From Flagellimonas meishanensis (GTDB taxonomy: Bacteria; Bacteroidota; Bacteroidia; Flavobacteriales; Flavobacteriaceae), in contig NZ_JAINVW010000003.1 in the NCBI RefSeq assembly GCF_019880545.1, forward strand, positions 310,001-374,000: a stretch of DNA of 64,000 nt, in the 5' to 3' direction. Positions within the stretch are counted from its first letter, which is position 1; every line of letters begins with the position of its first letter. The notes under the pieces were generated by a model. The model was not told the DNA's origin, searched no databases, and saw nothing but the letters and a program-made list of their open reading frames with translations. Shown here one piece after another: positions 10,901 to 41,959 of this stretch. A program made the translations under genes and the position numbers.

Positions 10901-11103
10901 GGACCTTTAATTTTGCCAGTATCCTTGCTTTTGCCAGCATCATGATGACCTATTTTGGGGTAAATTTCTACCTAGTTGGATTACATAGCTATGCTAGTGG
11001 GGACCAGGTGATCACCCCAAGTTTTGTGTGGTACACAGTATTCGGGGTCTTCGTTTTGGGCGGGGTAAGCCTATGGCGCTACCGGGTTCATTATGCAAAA
11101 TAA
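7936..11103 (+). CDS. ccsA: Cytochrome c biogenesis protein, ResB-CcsA fusion
   Basis: A 1055-residue membrane protein. The first ~460 residues have membrane segments near the start, around 60-110 and near 440, with a large extracytoplasmic region between, as in ResB/Ccs1. A further extracytoplasmic region covers roughly 490-740. The last ~310 residues are multi-spanning and carry the haem-handling tryptophan motif of CcsA, WGRYWGWDPKE at residues 953-963. System II cytochrome c maturation moves haem outward and attaches it to apocytochromes. The fused order ResB then CcsA is common in Bacteroidota. The gene stands alone between a divergent operon and the MATE gene. Confidence 0.92.
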   Translation: MIDILKKTLFSTKLMAVLFLIFAGAMAIGTFVESWYSTETARIYIYNATWFEAIMVFFVINFTGNIFRYQLLRWKKWPVLLLHLSWILIIMGAFVTRYISYEGMMPIREGASENRFYSDKTYLTTFVDGDINGETKRRVLEDDLIVTPEGIRSSLPWKSDFNGQPFSIAFVDFIKGAKRGLIPDEQGKEYLKIVEAGDGQRHEHYLENGQIASIHNVLFALNNKTDGAINILYNDGEYQIQSPFEGSFMRMADQFRGNLVKDSLQSLQLRSLYTMAGMQFVIPEPLVTGSYGVVKVPEDEITDSTLDALVVSISANGETKEAKLLGGQGTTNFSDKIQVGGLDFSLSYGSKVYELPFSIKLNDFIAEKYPGTETGYSSFMSKITVNDERSFDYDIFMNHVLDHRGYRFFQSSFHPDEKGTVLSVNHDMWGTWITYIGYFLLYIGLMGIMFFGKTRFRDLQEMLEKIKVKKAALTLFALFLASGHMTAQQNDSNHDHSLLPTQDQVDSIIQTTKVDQAHAERFGALVIQDEGGRMKPIHTFASELLRKLSGKNSYKDLSANQVFLSMMLNPGAWYNTEFIALGKKENDSIRKIIGVPQGTKYVKATDFFDQKGTYKLQPYLEKATSTNNPSSFEKDFKKVGERLSLLNIALSGQIVKIFPLLNDENNKWISAIEYRSGQYQVQDSLYSNFIRNALPFYLTSLQDAVTTGDYSQPDKLLEAFKQNQKNHGQEVLPSEKKVKTEIIYNKLDIFNRLYKYYALVGLLLFAVLIFKIFKDREFLKAIAYVLKGTIILFFIWHTAGLVLRWYISGHAPWSDAYESILYVSWATMGIGLALGRKSELTIAASAFVTSMLLWIAHQSWVDPSIANLVPVLDSYWLMIHVAVIVGSYGPLTVGMILGVVSLLLIVLTTDKNKAKMDLNIKEITIINELALTTGLVMLTIGNFLGGQWANESWGRYWGWDPKETWALISIMIYAFVLHMRLVPGLRGKWTFNFASILAFASIMMTYFGVNFYLVGLHSYASGDQVITPSFVWYTVFGVFVLGGVSLWRYRVHYAK

Positions 11104-11145
11104 TGCCATTCGTCCCCCTTTTCTTTAAAAAAAAGTTGCATATTT

Positions 11146-11231
11146 GCTTCATCATGAAGCTATAAGAATTATGTACACGATAGATGTCACCTTTTCGCCA
11201 GGGCGAAATAAATAACCGAAAGACTTTTCGG
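11146..11231. repeat. Three short inverted repeats in the ccsA-MATE gap
   Basis: Within 86 bases there are three separate perfect inverted repeats: GCTTCAT-C-ATGAAGC (11146-11160), TTTCGCC-AG-GGCGAAA (11193-11208) and CCGAAA-GACT-TTTCGG (11216-11231). None is followed by a T-run, so they do not look like intrinsic terminators. They could be operator sites for a repressor of the MATE gene or RNA hairpins in its leader. Confidence 0.55.
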
Positions 11232-11276
11232 AAAACTTGACATCACCTCCTCTTTGTTACACATAATTCTTTTAAA

Positions 11277-12686
11277 ATGACACGCTTAAATACACACTCT
11301 TTTAAAAAATTCATCAATTATTTCTGGATAGCCGTGTCCGGAAAAGAAACCGAATTTACTTCAGGAAGCATCCGGAAGGCCATATTCATGCTATCCATTC
11401 CCATGATTTTGGAAATGTTGATGGAATCCATTTTTGCTTTGGTGGACATCGCCTATGTTTCCCAAGTAAGCGTAAATGCGGTGGCTACCATTGGCTTAAC
11501 GGAATCCGTAATCACATTGGTCTATGCCCTTGCCATTGGGCTGAGTATGGCCGCCACGGCGATAGTTGCTCGCAGAATAGGGGAAAAGGACGTCCAGGGT
11601 GCCCGAATTGCAGCAGTGCAAGCCATTAGCCTTGGAATTTTGGTCTCGGTGGTTCTTGGAACCGTTGGTATCCTGTATCCAAAGGAAATTTTGGCCTTGA
11701 TGGGTGCTGAACCAGAACTTATTGAAGAAGGGTATGGGTATACCCAATTTTTGATAGGAGGAAACATTACCATTGTGCTGTTGTTCATGATAAATGCCAT
11801 TTTCAGGGGAGCTGGGGATGCCTCCATTGCCATGTGGGCATTGATTCTTTCTAACGGACTAAATATCATCCTAGATCCCATTTTCATTTTTGGATGGGGT
11901 CCTGTCCCAGAATATGGGGTTATGGGCGCAGGAATTGCGACCAATATTGGCAGGGGAAGTGCGGTGTTGTTCCAGTTGGGGATTTTGTTCTTTGGATGGG
12001 GCAGGATCAAGCTGGCTGTGAACGATTTGGTCCTGAACCTTAAGGTAATGGTCAACCTGATTAAAGTTTCCTTGGGTGGAATCGCCCAATTTTTGATTGG
12101 GACCTCCAGCTGGGTTTTCCTTATGCGGATCATGTCAGAGTTTGGGAGCGAAGTTTTGGCAGGTTACACCATTGCCATACGCGTAATGTTGTTCACCTTG
12201 ATGCCTTCATGGGGCATGAGCAATGCGGCTGCTACCCTTGTGGGCCAGAACTTAGGGGCCAAACAACCCGAAAGGGCGGAAATATCGGTCTGGAAAACAG
12301 GAAAATACAATGCGTATTTCATGGCCTTGGTTTCCGTGGTATACTTGATTTTTGCCAAAGATATCGTTGCCGCCTTCAATGCCACACCAAGTGTGGTGGA
12401 AAATGGGGGACTTTGCCTGCAGATCATTGCCATGGGCTATGTGTTTTATGCCTACGGCATGGTAGTTACCCAAGCGTTCAATGGGGCAGGGGACACTAGG
12501 ACTCCTACCAAAATCAATTTGGTTACATTTTGGATATTTCAGTTGCCTTTCGCCTATGTGGCCGCACTTGTATTGGGATGGGGAGCCACAGGTGTTTTTG
12601 TGGCGATTACCCTCGCCGAAGTGCTGTTGGCCATTATCGCCATGGTTTGGTTCAAAAAAGGAAAATGGAAGCAGGTCCAGGTATAA
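11277..12686 (+). CDS. MATE family efflux transporter
   Basis: A 469-residue protein with about 12 membrane segments in two similar halves. It has the MATE pattern of a start near FTSGSIRKAIFMLSIPMIL, an acidic-free first repeat with ATAIVARRIGEKD, and the second-half AATLVGQNLGAKQPERAE. MATE proteins export drugs and other organic cations in exchange for Na+ or H+. The ~45-residue N-terminal extension before the first membrane helix is hydrophilic. Upstream are three inverted repeats that may control it. The trans-sulfuration gene follows 36 bases later. Confidence 0.9.
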   Translation: MTRLNTHSFKKFINYFWIAVSGKETEFTSGSIRKAIFMLSIPMILEMLMESIFALVDIAYVSQVSVNAVATIGLTESVITLVYALAIGLSMAATAIVARRIGEKDVQGARIAAVQAISLGILVSVVLGTVGILYPKEILALMGAEPELIEEGYGYTQFLIGGNITIVLLFMINAIFRGAGDASIAMWALILSNGLNIILDPIFIFGWGPVPEYGVMGAGIATNIGRGSAVLFQLGILFFGWGRIKLAVNDLVLNLKVMVNLIKVSLGGIAQFLIGTSSWVFLMRIMSEFGSEVLAGYTIAIRVMLFTLMPSWGMSNAAATLVGQNLGAKQPERAEISVWKTGKYNAYFMALVSVVYLIFAKDIVAAFNATPSVVENGGLCLQIIAMGYVFYAYGMVVTQAFNGAGDTRTPTKINLVTFWIFQLPFAYVAALVLGWGATGVFVAITLAEVLLAIIAMVWFKKGKWKQVQV

Positions 12687-12722
12687 GTCATTTCTTTATC
12701 TTTAGGACAAAGTTTTTGTATC

Positions 12723-13895
12723 ATGAAGTCTAAATATAAAGGAACAAATACCATTTGTACCCATGTTGGTGAGTTGGAGGATAAGCAGTTCAAGGGTGCT
12801 GTTTCCCCCCTGTACATGAGCACCTCATATGCCTTTGAGGATGTTCCTGTAAAAAGATACCCGAGATATTTCAACACACCCAACCAGGAAGCACTGTGCA
12901 AAAAACTGGCTGCCTTGGAACACGCCGAGGCAGCATTGATTTTTGGAAGTGGCATGGCTGCCATTAGCACGGCCCTTATGACCTTTTTGAGGGCGGGTGA
13001 TCATATTGTGCTGCAACAGACGCTGTATGGTGGAACCTACAACTTTGTGGTCACGCAGTTGGAAAAGTATGGGATAGTCTATTCCTTCACCACAGGATGG
13101 GAGGTAGAGGACTTTGAAAAAGAAATCAAGCCTAACACCAAGGTCATATATATTGAGACCCCATCCAACCCACTTTTGACCATTACAGACCTAGCGGGGA
13201 TTGCCAAACTAGCCAAAAAACACAGTGCCATATCCCTAATTGACAATACATTTGCCAGTCCAATCAACCAAAACCCCATTGATTTTGGTATTGATATGGT
13301 GCTTCACAGTGCCACAAAGTATATGGGGGGACATTCCGATATATGTGCCGGTGTTGTCGCAGCCTCGGAAGATAAAATCAAGGAAATTTTCCATAACGCC
13401 ATCTGTTTTGGAGGTAGTTTGAGCGATTACACGGTATGGCTTTTGGAACGAAGTATCAAAACCATGGGATTGCGGGTCAGGGCCCAAACGGAGAATGCCA
13501 TGAAAATGGCCAATTACCTGAGTGCACATGATGACATTGAAAAAGTCTATTATCCCGGGTTGCAGGACCATCCTGGGCATAAACTGGCCAAATCCCAAAT
13601 GAAGGGTTTTGGGGGCATGCTCTCTTTTGAAATGAGAAACGATATCGATGTATCCCAATTTTTCAAGGAATTGAAGCTCATCAAGCCTTCCATGAGCTTG
13701 GCAGGAATAGAGACCACCATGCTCTCCCCCACAAAAACCTCACACGCCCTAATGAGCCCTGAGGATAGGGAAAAACAGGGAATAAAGGACTCTCTGATAC
13801 GCTTTTCCATAGGTATTGAGGAGATGGAGGATTTGGTTGAAGACATTGAACAGGCTTTGGCTAAGGTGAAGAAACAGAGCAGGGTACACGCATAA
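12723..13895 (+). CDS. Trans-sulfuration PLP enzyme (cystathionine gamma-synthase/lyase or methionine gamma-lyase family)
   Basis: A 390-residue cytoplasmic enzyme of the Cys/Met metabolism PLP family. The PLP lysine sits in HSATKYMGGHSD, the phosphate-binding FGSGMAAIST motif is present, and YYPGLQDHPGH is the family's C-terminal domain marker. The family splits into cystathionine beta- or gamma-lyases, gamma-synthases, O-acetylhomoserine sulfhydrylases and methionine gamma-lyases; I cannot decide among them by eye. It lies 12 bases upstream of bshB1, which makes cysteine that feeds bacillithiol a plausible link. Confidence 0.85.
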   Translation: MKSKYKGTNTICTHVGELEDKQFKGAVSPLYMSTSYAFEDVPVKRYPRYFNTPNQEALCKKLAALEHAEAALIFGSGMAAISTALMTFLRAGDHIVLQQTLYGGTYNFVVTQLEKYGIVYSFTTGWEVEDFEKEIKPNTKVIYIETPSNPLLTITDLAGIAKLAKKHSAISLIDNTFASPINQNPIDFGIDMVLHSATKYMGGHSDICAGVVAASEDKIKEIFHNAICFGGSLSDYTVWLLERSIKTMGLRVRAQTENAMKMANYLSAHDDIEKVYYPGLQDHPGHKLAKSQMKGFGGMLSFEMRNDIDVSQFFKELKLIKPSMSLAGIETTMLSPTKTSHALMSPEDREKQGIKDSLIRFSIGIEEMEDLVEDIEQALAKVKKQSRVHA

Positions 13896-29907: not shown

Positions 29908-30675
29908 TTGAACGATTTGGAACATCCGATTAAAATATTGATTGTAGAGGACAATGTGATCATCGCTGATGACATGCAGTCCATGCTGGAAGAGATCGGC
30001 TATGAGATCGTGGACAATGTTATTGTATATGAACAGGCCGTTGATGTATTGAAGAACAATCACGTGGATTTAGTGCTCATAGACATTATATTGGCTTCCG
30101 ATAAAACAGGCATAGACCTTGGAAAGCACATCAGGGACAATTATAACATTCCATTTATTTTTGTCACCTCAAACTCCGATAGGGCCACCGTCGAGAATGC
30201 CAAAACGGTCAAACCGGACGGTTATTTGGTCAAACCCTTCGAGCAACAGGACCTATATACCTCAATTGAGATTGCACTTTCCAATTTCAACTATAACTCA
30301 AAAATGAGGGATAACATGACGGATGACAGTGGTGATGGCGAAGGTATTGTCTCCAACTCCATCCTAAAGGATTCCATCTTCGTAAAAAAACAACATCTAT
30401 ATTATAGAATTCAGTTTGAGGATATCCAGTTCATCAAAGCGGACAATGTATACCTAGAGGTAAATACGGTGGACAAGAAATTTTTGGTGCGCTCTCCACT
30501 CAAGGATTATTTGGAAAAATTGCCACGCAACAAATTTTATAGAGCACACAAATCCTATATCGTAAATGTGGACCATATTGATGCCATCAATTCCAAGGAC
30601 ATCATGATCAACAATAACCTGATTCCAATTTCCAAGGATTTTAAGGAGTTCATCATCTCGTCCATGAACAGTTGA
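29908..30675 (+). CDS. LytTR-family response regulator
   Basis: A 255-residue regulator. The receiver domain (about 8-125) has the acidic pair in LIVEDNVIIADDM, phospho-acceptor Asp59 in LVLIDIIL, a Thr in FVTSN and Lys in LVKPFE. After a linker comes a LytTR DNA-binding domain (about 150-250) with IQFIKADNVYLEV and FYRAHKSYIVNVDHI. The only reasonable start is TTG at 29908. By family knowledge LytTR domains bind 9-base direct repeats spaced by about two helical turns. The likely partner is the TPR kinase gene 560 bases downstream, which has such repeats in front of it. Confidence 0.9.
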   Translation: MNDLEHPIKILIVEDNVIIADDMQSMLEEIGYEIVDNVIVYEQAVDVLKNNHVDLVLIDIILASDKTGIDLGKHIRDNYNIPFIFVTSNSDRATVENAKTVKPDGYLVKPFEQQDLYTSIEIALSNFNYNSKMRDNMTDDSGDGEGIVSNSILKDSIFVKKQHLYYRIQFEDIQFIKADNVYLEVNTVDKKFLVRSPLKDYLEKLPRNKFYRAHKSYIVNVDHIDAINSKDIMINNNLIPISKDFKEFIISSMNS

Positions 30676-31028: not shown

Positions 31029-31234
31029 AGTCTCTCCCAATGAATCTAATTTTGAAAGTAATATAACGTTCTTTATATACCCCATACGTTGACCAAGAGT
31101 GCATTTTCAAACAGGTTTTGTACAACCTTTTAAAACAGCGCAGAGTTACATTCAACAATAAGGGGCTATTAGCAGTAAAGGGCACATAAACAATAGCATT
31201 TCGGGTTTTTTTGAATGTACTATCAGGTAAATTA

Positions 31235-33196
31235 ATGGAACGTTACGCCAGATTCTTCTTCATTTTCCTTTTAATGGCATCCGTGCAGATGGCCACGGCC
31301 CAATCCTTGGAGGGAGAAAGGCAAAACGTGCTTGATGACTTCCAGTCTACACAGGGCGCCCCGGAAAGATTTAGAGTGTTTTTTGGTTCAGTGAACCGAT
31401 ATGATATCAATTCCGCTTACGATTGGTTGGATACCGTGAAGGTATACCTGGCCAACTCCGAAAAGACCAAGGATACCTTTGCCATGCGATTGTACAAGGT
31501 AATGCAGGCACAATTGTACAACGACCTGGGAGAATTCGACAAGAGTACCGCCCTGGCCAAGGAACTTCATACCGAATTGGATTCCCTGGATTCCGATTCC
31601 AGAAAAGTCGTGCTGAACGTGTTGGATGATAACTATGCCAACCTGCAGTTGTTCGACAAGCAAATCGAGATAAGAAAGCAAAAAAGGGAGCTGGGCATAA
31701 CGGAGAATGTCGCCTTTTACGATATATACAGCAACCTAGGGCTCTACAGAAAGGCCAGGAACCAATACATCATGGAGGTTAAGCCCACCATTGCCGACAA
31801 CGATTCCTACGGGTTGGCCAGATACCATGGAAAGGTGGGCAATTATCTGCGATTGGACAATTCGGCGCCAACAGCGATGAGCGAACTGAAAAAGGCAAAG
31901 GCCTATTTGGATGTTTTTATCAACGATATTTCCATACAAAAATCCGAAGAACAGCTTTTTGAGAGCGATCTTTTAAAAGCGGAAATAGAGGGCAATATCG
32001 CCAAGTGCCATGTGATGTTGGGCGAATATGAAGAAGCTATCCCTCTTTTGGAAAACAGTATTGAGGTTCTGAACGGATCACCCAAGAACAACCATAAGAG
32101 TGAGGTGGTGGACAATACCCTGTATCTGGCCGATGCCAACCTGCAGTTGGAAAAGTTCCTGGCCGCAAAGCGAATGTTAGACATTGATTTTGACAATATC
32201 AGCGTACTTCAGAACATCAAGAGAAACAGTTTGCTCGCAGAGTACTATGACAAGGTGGAGAATTATAGAAACGCTGCCACCTACTACAAACGAAATGAAC
32301 GGATCAAGGATTCCTTGGCGCAAAAGCAGTCCGCACTTATAAAACAACAATTGGTCACCATTGTGGCCAACGAGGATTTGGAGAATTCCCAGCGTTTGAT
32401 TGACGAACAGAAACGAATCAACGAACTGGCACGTAGCGAAATGAAGGCCAAGGATGAGAGGATCAATTTGGTGTTCATTTCCCTCATCTTCACCTTGCTC
32501 GGTTTCGCGGGATTGGTCTATGCCTACTTAAAAAGTATCAAGAACCAACGTTTGATCGCGGAACAGAAGCACATAATCGAGAACGCCCTTATCGAAAAAG
32601 ATTCCTTGTTGAAGGAGATTCACCACCGGGTGAAGAACAACCTGCAAATGGTTTCCAGCCTGTTGAGCCTCCAAACCAAGAATACCCGAAGCAAATCGGC
32701 CATAGAAGCCTTGGAAGAAGGAAAGAGCCGGGTAAAGGCCATGGCATTGATCCATCAAAAGCTTTATCAAAATGATGACCTATCGGTGATAGAAATGCAA
32801 GGGTATATCGAAAGCCTCATCAACAGTGTGCAATCCGTGTATAAAAAAGGAGGGCATAACATCAACATCACCATTGATGCGGAGGGCACAGAATTGGATA
32901 TTGACCGGGCAATCCCATTTGGATTGATTTTGAACGAATTGGTCTCCAATTCCTTCAAATATGCGTTCCCGGGCAATGACGATGACGGAAAAATATACAT
33001 CCATTTGAGAAAAAATGGCAGCCAGGGCTATTTTGAATATACCGATAATGGTGTGGGACTTCCGGAGGATACCGACGACCATAGCCACTCTTCCATGGGA
33101 ATACGACTGATCAACCGATTGGTGAACCAATTGCAATCCAAACTGAACATTGACAAGAATGTGGAGGGGGTACGCTTTTGGTTTAATTTCAGTTAA
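31235..33196 (+). CDS. TPR-containing sensor histidine kinase (HisKA_2 type)
   Basis: A 653-residue protein. It has a signal peptide (residues 1-23, ending ATAQS), ~380 residues of tetratricopeptide repeats in the periplasm, one membrane helix (about 418-438), a coiled linker, and a HisKA_2 dimerisation domain with EIHHRVKNNLQMVSSLLSLQ (His463/464). The ATPase domain has NELVSNSFKYAF, DNGVGLP and SSMGIRLINRLVNQL. The kinase is intact. I start at ATG 31235 because of the signal peptide; the TTG at 31211 is upstream of it. The LytTR regulator gene upstream is the natural partner. Confidence 0.9.
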   Translation: MERYARFFFIFLLMASVQMATAQSLEGERQNVLDDFQSTQGAPERFRVFFGSVNRYDINSAYDWLDTVKVYLANSEKTKDTFAMRLYKVMQAQLYNDLGEFDKSTALAKELHTELDSLDSDSRKVVLNVLDDNYANLQLFDKQIEIRKQKRELGITENVAFYDIYSNLGLYRKARNQYIMEVKPTIADNDSYGLARYHGKVGNYLRLDNSAPTAMSELKKAKAYLDVFINDISIQKSEEQLFESDLLKAEIEGNIAKCHVMLGEYEEAIPLLENSIEVLNGSPKNNHKSEVVDNTLYLADANLQLEKFLAAKRMLDIDFDNISVLQNIKRNSLLAEYYDKVENYRNAATYYKRNERIKDSLAQKQSALIKQQLVTIVANEDLENSQRLIDEQKRINELARSEMKAKDERINLVFISLIFTLLGFAGLVYAYLKSIKNQRLIAEQKHIIENALIEKDSLLKEIHHRVKNNLQMVSSLLSLQTKNTRSKSAIEALEEGKSRVKAMALIHQKLYQNDDLSVIEMQGYIESLINSVQSVYKKGGHNINITIDAEGTELDIDRAIPFGLILNELVSNSFKYAFPGNDDDGKIYIHLRKNGSQGYFEYTDNGVGLPEDTDDHSHSSMGIRLINRLVNQLQSKLNIDKNVEGVRFWFNFS

Positions 33197-37669: not shown

Positions 37670-37828
37670 CTGCTTATTAAGGTTGGGAAGACGCTCACAA
37701 ATCCTTAAAAAAATCATAAATGCGTCAAAAATAGTACAGAAAACCTTAGCTTAAAGAGCAATTAATCAATGCCAATCCAAACAATGTTTTAATGGTATGT
37801 GCTCTGGCTCCTCAATACTTTTATTGCT

Positions 37829-39991
37829 ATGAAATCTAAGTTATTATTTGTTTTGCTGTTCTTTTCAATTTTAGCATTCTCACAGCACAAGAAACTGGTT
37901 ACCATTTGTTGGGATGTTTCCCTTTCCATGCAGGATCGGGATACCTTTAGGGAATTCTATTTTTTGGATGCCTATTTCCAGACCGTAAAAGAAGCCGAGG
38001 TCACACTCCTTACGTTTAGTGATAAAGTGTTATCCAAAGATGTTTTTACAATTTCAAATGGAAACTGGGATGGTTTGAAGCAAAAACTTTCCGCTCATTT
38101 TCACGATGGAGCCACATCGTACAAAAATTTGGGGGAATATGCTGGACAAGACGAGGTGCTGCTCTTTACCGATGGCCGTCAAAATATGTATTCGGGCTCC
38201 CCACAATTTAAAGGTGAACTCTTCATCATCAACGGCAAAAAGGATTTTGACAGGGCCAATCTAAACCTTTTGGCCATTATGAATAATGGAAATTTGGTCA
38301 ATCTTCCAGAAAGAAAAGACGTGGAGGAAAAGGATAATGATCTAAACCAGTATTCTGGGGTTGTTTACAGTGGGACCACCGGAGTTTCAAACACTTTGGT
38401 ATACATAAAGGGTGATGTCCAAAACCAGGTTTACACTAACGATCAAGGGGCATTCAACATCAATGGGGTTATTGGTGACACTTTGGTTGTTTCCAAAGAT
38501 GGGAGGGCCGCGGAGTTTCCCTTGGAAGAAAATCGAAACCTCGTATTTTCTTTTGAAGAAACTGAAATACAGCTGCAAGAAATCGTTTTAAAGGGAGAGG
38601 CCATTGAAAAACCTAGCGAGAACTTCGCTACCACGGGCTTTGGAAAAGAAAACAAGGATAAAATAGGTTATGCGGTCCAATCGATAACCGAAGATGATAT
38701 TTCGGATATATCGTACACTGTAAATAATGCGGTGCAAGGTAAGTTTTCCGGAGTTCGATTAGGGCAAAATGATGATTTGAGCCAAGTGATCATGAGACCT
38801 AGTAATTCCATATTGGGAAACAATTATGGACTAATTGTAGTTGATGGAGTTCCCATTGAAAGGTCTAATTCATTTTCAGGAAAAATTTCAGACACTGATT
38901 TCATTGACCCGCAAAACATTGCGGAAGTCACAGTGTTGAAAGGTCTTTCCGCTACCAATCGTTTTGGCAGTCTTGGCGCCAATGGGGTACTACTAATAAC
39001 TACCAAAACAGCCACGGTTTCTGGTTCTTCTAGTGAAGGAAAGGATTTAGCAAGATTGAAGAACAATATATATGATGGAAAGGTCCAGGTAAACAACAAA
39101 ACATTGGTTACACCGTACCTGAGGGAACTAAAAAAAGGTAAGACACTTCAAGAAGCCTATGATATTTACCTATCCCAGCGGAAGAATTACCTAGAAAACA
39201 CCGAATATTTGTTGGATGTCTTCGAGTTCTTCCATGCCTCCAGCCCTGACATTGGGGAAAGAATCGTATCGAACATTTTAGAAAAGGACAATCCCAATTA
39301 TGAAGAGTTGAGCGGGATGTTCTTGAAATGCTCAGAAAAGGGCAGTCATGAATTGGCCCTATTGGCAGCGCAGCGAAAATTGGAGCTGTTTCCCAATAAA
39401 ATACAATCGTATTATGATGTGGCCCTTGCCGAAGGGAATAACGGCCATTATCAGGAGGCCCTAAACACGTTAAATGCGATGATCACAGGAGAAGCGAACC
39501 CCAAAGTGGATTTTAGCAGGAACGAAAAACTTATTGGAACGGAAATACGTAATTTAATTAATAGAGAACGAAGCCAATTGGACGTCTCAAAAGTAAACCC
39601 AAGTTATTATAACAACCTTACTTATAATACCCGAGTGGTCCTGGACTGGAACAATCCTGATGCGGAATTTGTGGTCCAGTTCGTTAATCCCCAGAAGCGA
39701 TTTTTCAATTGGGAGCATACGGAAATGGTTGATAGAAGTGGGATAATTGATGAAATTCGTCAAGGATTCTTCAATGAACAGTTCGAAATTGTGGGCGCAG
39801 AGACTAAAGGGGATTGGCTATTGAATGTTACCTATATGGGCAACCGAAATCCCAGCAAGCAAGCGCCGACATTTTTGAAATGCAGGGTTCAATACAACTT
39901 TGGAAAGCCCAATCAGCGAGAGGAGGAGTTCCTGGTGCGCCTTCAAGATGTTGGACAGGTGCAGGAACTGGCCAAATTTAAGGTGGACTGA
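37829..39991 (+). CDS. Secreted multidomain protein: vWA-like, carboxypeptidase-regulatory-like, TonB plug (no barrel), TPR-like and C-terminal beta domain
   Basis: A 720-residue protein with a signal peptide (ending LAFSQ). Residues ~20-165 look like a von Willebrand A domain with a MIDAS-type DVSLS, a Thr in GATSYKN and LFTDG. About 180-260 is a CarboxypepD_reg-like Ig fold (VYSGTTGVSNTLVYIKG, TNDQGAFNI). About 265-410 matches a TonB-dependent receptor plug, ending GVLLITTK; a beta-barrel does not follow. About 430-560 is helical and TPR-like, and the last ~130 residues form a beta domain (RVVLDWNNPDAEF ... WLLNVTYMGN) reminiscent of DUF2135. The next gene is a paralogue sharing the last four parts. 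Start set by the signal peptide. The function is unknown. Confidence 0.75.
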   Translation: MKSKLLFVLLFFSILAFSQHKKLVTICWDVSLSMQDRDTFREFYFLDAYFQTVKEAEVTLLTFSDKVLSKDVFTISNGNWDGLKQKLSAHFHDGATSYKNLGEYAGQDEVLLFTDGRQNMYSGSPQFKGELFIINGKKDFDRANLNLLAIMNNGNLVNLPERKDVEEKDNDLNQYSGVVYSGTTGVSNTLVYIKGDVQNQVYTNDQGAFNINGVIGDTLVVSKDGRAAEFPLEENRNLVFSFEETEIQLQEIVLKGEAIEKPSENFATTGFGKENKDKIGYAVQSITEDDISDISYTVNNAVQGKFSGVRLGQNDDLSQVIMRPSNSILGNNYGLIVVDGVPIERSNSFSGKISDTDFIDPQNIAEVTVLKGLSATNRFGSLGANGVLLITTKTATVSGSSSEGKDLARLKNNIYDGKVQVNNKTLVTPYLRELKKGKTLQEAYDIYLSQRKNYLENTEYLLDVFEFFHASSPDIGERIVSNILEKDNPNYEELSGMFLKCSEKGSHELALLAAQRKLELFPNKIQSYYDVALAEGNNGHYQEALNTLNAMITGEANPKVDFSRNEKLIGTEIRNLINRERSQLDVSKVNPSYYNNLTYNTRVVLDWNNPDAEFVVQFVNPQKRFFNWEHTEMVDRSGIIDEIRQGFFNEQFEIVGAETKGDWLLNVTYMGNRNPSKQAPTFLKCRVQYNFGKPNQREEEFLVRLQDVGQVQELAKFKVD

Positions 39992-40162
39992 TTCTTTCCA
40001 AACAGGTTTCCCTTCATTATTCTTGACAAGGCAAACCTTACCTCAAAATTATATTAAGTAAAATTTGGGAAAATAAAATTGGCGATTTGCTGCCATTTCT
40101 ATAACTTAATGGTTATAAGTGTTTCACTTTCAACATTTTGTTGTTAAATAAATGGTATTGCT

Positions 40163-41959
40163 ATGAAAAATTTCCTTACTCTTCTCATCCTTTTCGCATT
40201 TGTTGCCCAAGCCCATTCACAAAATGGTACTCGAACGGTTACCGGAACCGTTTCTGACGATGATGAACCTTTGACCGGCGTAAGCGTGCAGGTATTGGAT
40301 AAGGATGTTAAAACAAGCAGCCAGAAAGATGGCCGGTATCAGGTTCCCGTGGAGACCGGTGATATAATCGCATATACGGCACGGGGTATGGAAACCCTGA
40401 AAATAAAGGTAGAAGATGTTACAAGAGTTTTAAACGTTGACCTTTCCCCAAAAGTAAAGCAGTTACAAAACGTCACGGTTACCGAGGTTGATAAAAAGGC
40501 AGAATCTGTAATGGATCAGGTCAAATTGAGAAAACAGAAGAAAAAGATTCTCACGGCTTTTGGAACCTTGGACAAATCCAGAGCGGGTTATGCAATTCGA
40601 ATTTTGGACCAAGAAGATTTTCTTCCTGGCGAATACAATCTCGTCAACTTACTGCGGGGCCGTTTTCCAAACTTGAACTTCGGTTTTGCCATGCCTTTTA
40701 CAAGAGGTAGGGGAAGAGGACCACAAGGCACCCCGTTTACCGGTTCAAACAACATAAATTCTGTTTTTTTAAGGGGCAATGTACCCGTGGTCTATGATAT
40801 CGACGGTCAAATTTTCACCGATTTTCCCTATTTCTTGGACGTACAAAACATTGAGCGTATTGCATTGATTCCATCCCTGACTGGCACTGTGCGTTATGGA
40901 ACATTGGGCAAAGGGGGAGTGATTGTGATCAATACAAAGACTGCCAGTGGAAATTGGTATGATGAAAATGACACCTATGATGAAATGGGCAGACTGCGCA
41001 ACAACATCTATGATGGCACCGCCCTAACCGAGAATGATCTAAATCAAGGGGCGCCAACATATTTAAAACAGTTGCAAGCCAGTACATCCTTGAGTGAGGC
41101 CAAAAATATTTATGAAACGAATATGGCAAAATATGCAACTTCTCCATTCTTTACCTTGGATGCATATCGATATTTTTATGAATCAAGAAACGAAAACGAT
41201 TTTGCGGACGACATCATCGAAAGGAAATATGGGCTCTTCAAAAACAATGCAGTACACCTTAAAGCATTGGCCTATATGTATGAGGCCCAAGGCCGTTATG
41301 AAAAAGCCTACGAGGCATATAAACAAGCCTTTATCCTGAGACCGCAATACGCCCAATCCTATCTGGATCTTTCCAACAGCAACCGAAACTTAAATAAGGA
41401 TAAAAGAGCTGCCGTGTTGTACTCCCGATATTTCTATTTGTTGAAAAAGGGAATGATGGAAACAGATTCTGCGGGCTTTTCAAAAATTATAAATAGGGAG
41501 TTCAACAATCTCTTGGCCTTGAAAAAGGCTGAAATGCTCAATAAGGATAAAATAGGAAAAATTAAAGTGGACAATGAAGATTTTGAGGGAACCCGTTTGG
41601 TTTTTGAATGGAATGATGGCGAAGCAGAGTTTGATCTACAGTTTGTGAGTCCCAAAAATCAGTTTTACACCTGGGAGCATACCCTGGCAGAAAACAAGGC
41701 TACAATTATGCAAGAAAAAGAAATGGGGTATTCCTGCGCAGAATTTCTAATTGATGATTACTTGCCCGGCAATTGGAAGATCAACATTAATTATATGGGC
41801 AACAAAAGCTTGACCCCCACCTACCTAAAGGCAACAATTTACCACGATTATGGTTCCAAAATGCAGCGAAAGGAGACCAAAGTATTCAAGTTGGATATTA
41901 AAAATGTAAACAGGGAGCTGTTTCAGCTTAATAAAACAGCCGCAGTTGCTTTAAGATAG
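40163..41959 (+). CDS. Secreted TonB-plug-domain protein without barrel, paralogue of the preceding gene
   Basis: A 598-residue protein with a signal peptide (ending QAHSQ). Residues ~21-105 form a CarboxypepD_reg-like domain (TVTGTVSDDDEPLTGVSVQV), ~110-255 a TonB plug-like domain ending GGVIVINTK, ~270-430 TPR-like helices (EAQGRYEKAYEAYKQAF) and ~470-590 the C-terminal beta domain (TRLVFEWNDGEAEF, WKININYMGN). It lacks the vWA domain of its neighbour. Shared landmarks are NNIYDG after the plug, WEHT and NYMGN/TYMGN near the end. Both ATGs are preceded by TTGCT. The 170-base gap between the two genes shows no terminator that I can support. Confidence 0.75.
   Translation: MKNFLTLLILFAFVAQAHSQNGTRTVTGTVSDDDEPLTGVSVQVLDKDVKTSSQKDGRYQVPVETGDIIAYTARGMETLKIKVEDVTRVLNVDLSPKVKQLQNVTVTEVDKKAESVMDQVKLRKQKKKILTAFGTLDKSRAGYAIRILDQEDFLPGEYNLVNLLRGRFPNLNFGFAMPFTRGRGRGPQGTPFTGSNNINSVFLRGNVPVVYDIDGQIFTDFPYFLDVQNIERIALIPSLTGTVRYGTLGKGGVIVINTKTASGNWYDENDTYDEMGRLRNNIYDGTALTENDLNQGAPTYLKQLQASTSLSEAKNIYETNMAKYATSPFFTLDAYRYFYESRNENDFADDIIERKYGLFKNNAVHLKALAYMYEAQGRYEKAYEAYKQAFILRPQYAQSYLDLSNSNRNLNKDKRAAVLYSRYFYLLKKGMMETDSAGFSKIINREFNNLLALKKAEMLNKDKIGKIKVDNEDFEGTRLVFEWNDGEAEFDLQFVSPKNQFYTWEHTLAENKATIMQEKEMGYSCAEFLIDDYLPGNWKININYMGNKSLTPTYLKATIYHDYGSKMQRKETKVFKLDIKNVNRELFQLNKTAAVALR

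Follow-up and report, generated by a model that had tools for sequence, protein, structure and literature searches.

Barrel-less proteins with a SusC-like front end in Flagellimonas meishanensis: candidate periplasmic adaptors of the Ton system

Why should a secreted protein carry the plug of a TonB-dependent receptor when it has no barrel? The question is raised by two consecutive, co-directional genes (gene 1, 37829-39991; gene 2, 40163-41959) in a stretch of 64,000 nucleotides from Flagellimonas meishanensis (contig NZ_JAINVW010000003.1, positions 310,001 to 374,000), referred to here as the window. The Ton system is known for powering barrel-bearing receptors, and Bacteroidota possess many SusC receptors and several TonB paralogues. 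The original prediction, made from the letters of the window, held that the two genes encode secreted proteins of 720 and 598 amino acids that share an Ig fold, a plug, tetratricopeptide repeat (TPR)-like helices and a beta domain, in that order, and this is borne out by Pfam, structural models and alignments. As judged from alignments and models, both proteins consist of a SusC-like N-terminal extension (NTE) and plug, without a barrel, joined to parts of another family. The reading that we prefer, with a confidence just short of even, is that they are soluble periplasmic adaptors of a family with the architecture [VIT]-vWA-SLOT-TPR-DUF2135, where vWA is a von Willebrand factor A domain and the slot is the variable part between vWA and TPR, and that they engage the Ton system through the NTE, TonB box and plug of SusC.

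A receptor front end and its missing barrel

The domain order of the two proteins is the same except for the vWA domain, which is present in gene 1 only. The parts are as follows.

Gene 1, 37829-39991, + strand: secreted vWA-NTE-TonB box-plug-TPR-DUF2135-like protein, 720 amino acids from the ATG
Gene 1 signal peptide, residues 1-19, 37829-37885, + strand: type I as judged by eye, without a lipobox Cys
Gene 1 vWA domain, residues 22-160, 37892-38308, + strand: complete metal-ion-dependent adhesion site (MIDAS; D29, S31, S33, T96 and D115), from the model and these residues
Gene 1 NTE, a carboxypeptidase-regulatory Ig fold, residues 174-244, 38348-38560, + strand: Pfam match below cut-off, and structure
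Gene 1 TonB-box motif LQEIVL, residues 249-254, 38573-38590, + strand: in a stretch of predicted local distance difference test (pLDDT) below 50; aligns with SusC LDEVVV
Gene 1 plug, residues 264-396, 38618-39016, + strand: Pfam, structure and profile alignment
Gene 1 TPR-like helices, residues 420-590, 39086-39598, + strand: Pfam match below cut-off, and model
Gene 1 DUF2135-like beta domain, residues 596-720, 39614-39988, + strand: Pfam match below cut-off, alignment and model
Gene 2, 40163-41959, + strand: secreted NTE-TonB box-plug-TPR-DUF2135-like protein, 598 amino acids
Gene 2 signal peptide, residues 1-20, 40163-40222, + strand: by eye
Gene 2 NTE, residues 24-99, 40232-40459, + strand: Pfam match below cut-off, and structure comparison
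Gene 2 TonB-box-like motif LQNVTV, residues 101-106, 40463-40480, + strand: alignment
Gene 2 plug, residues 130-262, 40550-40948, + strand: profile alignment, similarity to gene 1, and model
Gene 2 TPR-like helices, residues 290-458, 41030-41536, + strand: Pfam match below cut-off, and model
Gene 2 DUF2135-like beta domain, residues 476-591, 41588-41935, + strand: Pfam match below cut-off, alignment and model

The plug-like nature of the middle domain, as originally proposed, is upheld by several comparisons. The gene 1 plug matches Pfam PF07715 at 45 bits (cut-off 23.9; E 1.8e-11), and Foldseek matched SusC chains 8aa4 and 5fq6 to the gene 1 model over 128-134 columns at 34% identity. The top Foldseek matches were chiefly vWA structures, including the inter-alpha-inhibitor heavy chain 6fpy, and as whole-model matches mix domains they were evaluated domain by domain. 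Gene 2 itself gave no Pfam Plug match at E<=1, and there was no plug structure among the 50 best rows of its structure searches, so that its plug assignment rests on profile alignment. Its family (13 rows) aligned with 11 SusC-like N-termini over 234 columns (hhalign probability 99.9, E 1.6e-36), spanning the NTE and the TonB box and reaching the last plug strand; an alignment led by gene 1 likewise ran from NTE to plug end against the SusC N-terminus (E 1.1e-44). The similarity of both proteins to SusC ends where the SusC plug ends. Between the two window proteins, 456 columns align at 29% identity, beginning at the plug and running almost to the C-terminus.

The NTE scores in both proteins lie under the curated Pfam cut-off (17.5 and 31.2 bits, against 32.2), and the assignment is strengthened by structure: the NTE of the gene 2 model superposes on the SusC NTE 9hfj with Z 14.9 and a root-mean-square deviation (rmsd) of 1.6 over 79 residues (VIA-align), and that of the gene 1 model gives a TM-score of 0.81 by target length against the same structure (Foldseek). 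The models themselves, built with AlphaFold2 from 30 (gene 1) and 33 (gene 2) family rows, have mean pLDDT values of 81.3 and 80.1 and predicted TM-scores (pTM) of 0.63 and 0.57. The 22-strand barrel, whose presence after the plug would have contradicted the original prediction, is absent from both: the plug is followed by helices and then by a small beta domain, of eight strands in gene 1. Among 169 relatives with a plug, 262-338 residues (median 325) follow it; this count, like another of 203 proteins, includes fragments from short or overlapping loci.

The additional vWA-like domain claimed for gene 1 is likewise supported, by the model and by conserved residues. No Pfam VWA match was obtained for gene 1 at E<=1, and the assignment is made because of the model and because some relatives give weak Pfam VWA matches. 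VIA-align returned a long list of vWA entries for the model (Z up to 14.0, rmsd 3.1, 142 residues), among them inter-alpha-inhibitor heavy chain 1 (6fpy; Z 12.2, rmsd 3.3, 143 residues), a score that many other vWA domains match to within 2 Z. For both window proteins the TPR matches fall below the Pfam cut-off, as do those to DUF2135 (21.3 and 20.8 bits, against 22), and the TPR-DUF2135 part aligns with family members that score above it. The DUF2135 domain of VIT-type members retains an acidic DxDLxV ... GYGPE pattern which is replaced in both window proteins, as though a site for a metal or ligand had been lost.

The location of the two proteins is argued to be periplasmic, because each has a signal peptide and neither a sorting domain nor (by eye) a lipobox. 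A search for type IX sorting domains gave no Pfam or NCBIfam match at E<=1 in either protein; residues 1-80 of gene 1 show a weak NCBIfam match (18.5 bits, cut-off 40) to the N-terminus of PorU, which is not a sorting domain. By eye, neither protein has a transmembrane segment besides the signal peptide. Residues 1-20 of gene 1 evolve fast (median ratio of nonsynonymous to synonymous substitution rates, dN/dS, of 0.92), and the list of open reading frames (ORFs) offers an alternative GTG start at 37799, upstream of the ATG. A promoter scan with the motif TANNTTTG was uninformative, with 72 sites found in the window where shuffles predict 60.

Conservation of the TonB box and the plug

The original prediction overlooked both the TonB-box motif and the wider family. 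In gene 1 the motif falls within the link between NTE and plug (residues 245-265), which is modelled as disordered. The available part of PMC7782687 describes a TonB box, VDEVVV, at the same place in SusC Bt1763, where its deletion or mutation impairs growth on levan; there the box follows an NTE whose role that text leaves unassigned.

Constraint was assessed on 45 first-gene sequences, comprising the window and 44 of the 52 relatives' loci L106-L157, taken where a forward ORF of 640-780 amino acids lay near the match; L158-L185 were left out. The box follows the consensus L-[DEQ]-E-V-V-[VLI], with Leu in 45/45, Glu in 43/45 and Val in 43/45 sequences, and gene 1 of the window has Ile in place of the conserved Val. 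Region identities and dN/dS were computed for 21 close orthologues (210 pairs, the latter from unsaturated pairs only). The mean identity of the box is 0.69; two nearby linkers reach 0.14 and 0.26. The domains rank as plug (0.71), DUF2135-like (0.69), TPR (0.56), vWA (0.54) and NTE (0.35), and the two best conserved, plug and DUF2135-like, each have a median dN/dS of 0.10, from 40 and 17 unsaturated pairs of the 210. The hallmark residues of the plug are near invariant across the 45 sequences. On these comparisons the plug is under purifying selection in the lineage of the window. Of the MIDAS residues, D29, S31, S33 and D115 are invariant in all 45, and position 96 has Thr in 37 sequences, Ser in four, Asn in three and Ala in one. 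At one locus, L018, the NTE has been lost and the TonB box kept.

The box was tallied more widely in 232 non-redundant members with at least 230 amino acids upstream of the TPR, searching 260 residues, anywhere within which the strict motif may be met. For this tally, and for the plug-scaffold correlation below, VIT-type denotes the DxDLxV motif in DUF2135 and not a VIT match. The members share kinship, which makes the counts interdependent. The strict box occurs in 157/175 short-type members with a plug (10.1 expected from shuffles), in 16/17 VIT-type members with a plug, in all nine VIT-type members with a partial plug and in both short-type members without a full plug. Among the 29 VIT-type members without a plug match it was found in four (1.0 expected).

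A scattered family and the filling of its slot

Similarity over the TPR-DUF2135 part places the window genes in the [VIT]-vWA-SLOT-TPR-DUF2135 family, which is scattered among Bacteroidota. A TPR-DUF2135 search found relatives in 29/59 genomes (the window's own, which all genome counts here include, and its relatives), 27 of them within the 36 of the genus; across the phylum the corresponding figure is 26/247, and a VIT-type profile search across the class gave 19/345. The set of domains, for which the original prediction envisaged a search in other Bacteroidota, thus also occurs outside the window genome. An N-terminal VIT domain and DUF2135 are above cut-off in 9/9 relatives of one Pfam set, and a VIT domain is present in 2/8 of another; neither window protein has a Pfam VIT match. 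The tandem pair is no obligate set: in 80 named loci the family genes occur in one to four copies in tandem, in varying combinations and frequently at a shared locus, and nine of the 36 genus genomes have no match in the TPR-DUF2135 search.

The contents of the slot vary greatly. NTE, TonB box and plug occupy it in L089, L092 and L211-L217, a TonB box without a full plug in L051 and L090, and pieces of plug in L054, L102 and L103; no recognised module was seen in the slot of L093, L094 or L097. L102 and L103 have half plugs, and their scaffolds are 83% identical. The slot of L088 holds a TonB C-terminal domain, just above the Pfam cut-off (25.0 bits, against 24.6); among the matches listed, this stretch is 39-49% identical to mostly open frames of about 240 amino acids, which we take to be TonB proteins. 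L088 is the only member seen with a TonB domain in this position.

A second scaffold shows the same alternative. In a search of 21 genomes, M56 (BlaR1-like) peptidases were present in 15 and absent from that of the window. Among 30 M56 loci examined, with at most 320 residues per tail and counting by eye, the tails contain one or two TonB C-terminal domains in 8/30 (L250-L252, L260 and L264-L267) and the C-terminal half of a plug in 9/30 (L247, L249, L253, L254, L257-L259, L262 and L263). Pfam, applied to ten of these proteins, recognised TonB_C in 4/4 and Plug at E<=0.001 in 4/5 (one above the curated cut-off); the tenth matched neither. A regular-expression tally of the tails (no plug halves, four TonB-like tails) was discarded in favour of the count by eye. 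Taken together, M56 tails and family slot show the choice between a TonB domain and a piece of plug on two different scaffolds.

Plug trees bear on the origin of the slot contents. The SusC rows comprised six from the window genome and 20 picked by similarity to two cassettes, and with this limited choice the captures counted give a rough minimum. A quick tree of 91 plugs has those of VIT-type members scattered among SusC plugs, with 11 changes, at least five of them forced by starred branches; the short types of the window require two. In a further quick tree of 51 rows (23 VIT-type, 26 SusC and the two window plugs; 151 columns), a single clade of VIT-type plugs is rejected (log-likelihood lower by 255, approximately unbiased test p 5e-96), with at least four changes forced. 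For the TPR-DUF2135 scaffold, these 23 members form one group against four short-type rows, a result that carries a long-branch warning. Because the VIT-type plugs interleave with those of SusC and the single clade is rejected, receptors seem to have refilled the slot of VIT-type members repeatedly. The plugs of the window look like one old acquisition. In L212, the NTE-to-plug cassette shares 76% identity over 206 residues with a SusC encoded in the same genome, against 53% with the nearest other VIT-type cassette. Recent conversion of every slot by local SusC genes, supported for L212, is unsupported for L211, L214 and L215, in which sequence identities indicate that the cassette has been passed on vertically among close orthologues.

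Some side observations concern free-standing versions of these parts. Close to the family locus, L048:4020-4634 (+) encodes a protein of about 205 amino acids with an apparent signal peptide and little beyond plug pieces (Pfam Plug 62.8 bits), and L047 has a similar one of 206 amino acids. L046:9881-11023 encodes a 381-amino-acid protein with two NTE-like domains, just 5' of a vWA-plug gene (11085-13109) that has no NTE match; in L050, L052 and L053 the same domain order is fused as one protein of about 1000 amino acids. This split and fused arrangement hints at gene fission or fusion, and at contact between the parts.

Candidate roles and known systems

How might a plug act outside a barrel? 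TonB binding, partner and function are what we infer for the window proteins. The exposed TonB box would pair with the C-terminal domain of TonB, as in SusC, and NTE and plug would assist in its recognition, while the vWA MIDAS, TPR and DUF2135 parts might hold another envelope partner or ligand. The adaptor could then bring the Ton system to a task other than transport, or compete with receptors for TonB. This link to the Ton system is proposed because the TonB box is conserved, the plug is under selection, NTE, box and plug seem to have been captured repeatedly, and L088 has a TonB domain in its slot. A new role for the plug, perhaps in binding TonB, had been suggested originally; the conserved box, the repeated capture and L088 lend it partial support. 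A wider generalisation is possible but rather doubtful: that there is a class of barrel-less Ton clients, periplasmic proteins bearing either the NTE, box and plug of a receptor or a TonB domain, which serve Ton tasks other than uptake, with a slot restocked from SusC and a similar exchange in M56 peptidases.

Several findings weigh against the adaptor reading. The box of gene 2, LQNVTV, deviates from the consensus, and LxEVVV also ends an NTE-like domain without a plug, in L046_9881. Since 29 VIT-type members have no plug match and only four of these have the strict box, the scaffold can do without. The dN/dS values are based on 10-105 unsaturated pairs of 210 per region. As to repeated capture, the cassettes of L211, L214 and L215 are 67-74% identical to one another and at most 59% to any SusC of five genomes, and over 300 pairs the identity of the plug rises with that of the scaffold (Spearman 0.37). 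The nine genus genomes without a match also count against the adaptor reading, as do the four TonB_C matches of the window genome, all of which are on another contig. TonB, ExbB and ExbD were not recognised among the recurring neighbours, which were not scanned for them.

Three other explanations have to be weighed. The plug unit may be a plain module for binding or spacing that never meets TonB and binds some ligand, partner protein or empty barrel instead, while the vWA, TPR and DUF2135 parts do the work in the manner of inter-alpha-inhibitor. The closeness of the gene 1 vWA fold to 6fpy, the conserved MIDAS and the existence of plug-less members all agree with this, and purifying selection on a plug needs no TonB; taken alone, however, it leaves unexplained both a conserved TonB box in a disordered linker and the TonB C-terminal domain in the slot of L088, and we consider it rather unlikely. 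It is a less probable proposition still that the slot is an insertion-tolerant linker into which abundant SusC genes recombine, leaving pieces of plug as passengers that do little or nothing. It would account for the repeated capture of plugs from SusC, the window genome has 34 plug matches as possible donors, some members have no plug, and L102 and L103 have half plugs on closely similar scaffolds; but in the lineage of the window no domain apart from the DUF2135-like one is as well conserved as the plug, with the low dN/dS and near-invariant hallmarks described above, and retention of the box is far above shuffles. This explanation suits the half-plug VIT-type members better than the window pair.

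Most improbable of the three is that the proteins are sensors, in which the plug unit reports on receptor or Ton activity and the vWA and TPR parts signal onwards, like M56 peptidases or extracytoplasmic function (ECF) sigma systems. M56 peptidases of the genus and order do bear TonB_C or plug pieces, ECF-like sigma genes lie near the VIT-type members of L095, L098, L099, L100 and L105, and a histidine kinase and a LytTR regulator are encoded about 5-8 kb upstream of gene 1; against this, the window pair has no transmembrane segment besides the signal peptide (by eye), four genes for enzymes or membrane proteins lie between it and the kinase, and the window genome has no M56 match.

The surroundings of the family genes were also considered. 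A conserved locus consists of CAAX protease, AMP-ligase, M24 peptidase and the family genes, with a carboxylase on the other strand; in the 80 loci the M24 peptidase gene is the immediate upstream neighbour in 45 and the opposite-strand carboxylase gene the downstream neighbour in 40. As a clue to function these neighbours were rejected, the conserved flanking enzymes looking unrelated. In the window the LytTR response regulator occupies 29908-30675 and the TPR-bearing HisKA_2 histidine kinase 31211-33196. The ECF-like sigma genes near distant VIT-type members lie two genes upstream on the same strand in L095, L098, L099 and L105, and divergent from the member in L100. Between sigma gene and VIT-type member, L095 and L099 encode a protein whose type IX sorting domain scores above cut-off, and a type IX sorting-domain protein is encoded beside the VIT-type member at L094:8582-9475 and L096:3252-4079.

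If the docking unit of a receptor has repeatedly moved to soluble proteins and been retained, proteins of Bacteroidota that do not transport may be driven by TonB or may regulate it, and the window proteins offer a direct test of NTE, TonB box and plug acting alone. They also give reason for caution, in that an annotation as TonB receptor plug need not mean a transporter. No description of barrel-less plug proteins of this kind was recognised in the literature searched, which covered few subscription papers.

Among known systems, one complex has a part in common with the window proteins: the N-terminal Ig fold of BamP in the Flavobacterium BAM complex, as described in the accessible part of PMC12611786, is similar to the NTE of gene 2, which superposes on chain 9n2d_E with Z 10.8 and rmsd 2.5 over 79 residues. 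Membership of BamP or of the BAM complex was rejected, as gene 2 scores 24.1 bits against an NCBIfam cut-off of 230 and gene 1 has no match at E<=1. M56 peptidases show the same alternation of TonB domain and plug, with a peptidase in front and a different scaffold. Bacterial proteins of the VIT/vWA/DUF2135 type, and inter-alpha-inhibitor heavy chain, have in common with gene 1 a vWA fold with MIDAS, and the VIT-bearing members have a TPR-DUF2135 C-terminus that is probably homologous to that of the window proteins; the window proteins differ in having no VIT domain, in the replaced DxDLxV and in the plug that fills the slot. The SusC/RagA transporters resemble the window proteins in their N-terminal 220 or so residues, where NTE, TonB box and plug succeed one another in like manner; their plug is followed by a barrel where the window proteins have TPR and a beta domain. 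The nearest published idea that we met is in PMC12204202, the available part of which proposes vWA proteins as force transducers driven by proton-motive force, tethered by an inner-membrane helix on the side of the motor; PorE, with TPR and carboxypeptidase-regulatory domain like parts of the window proteins, is also proposed there for such systems. Compared with those transducers, as that part of the paper presents them, the window protein starts with a signal peptide, lacks an SHLS motif (by eye) and bears a box and plug, which belong to the side of the client.

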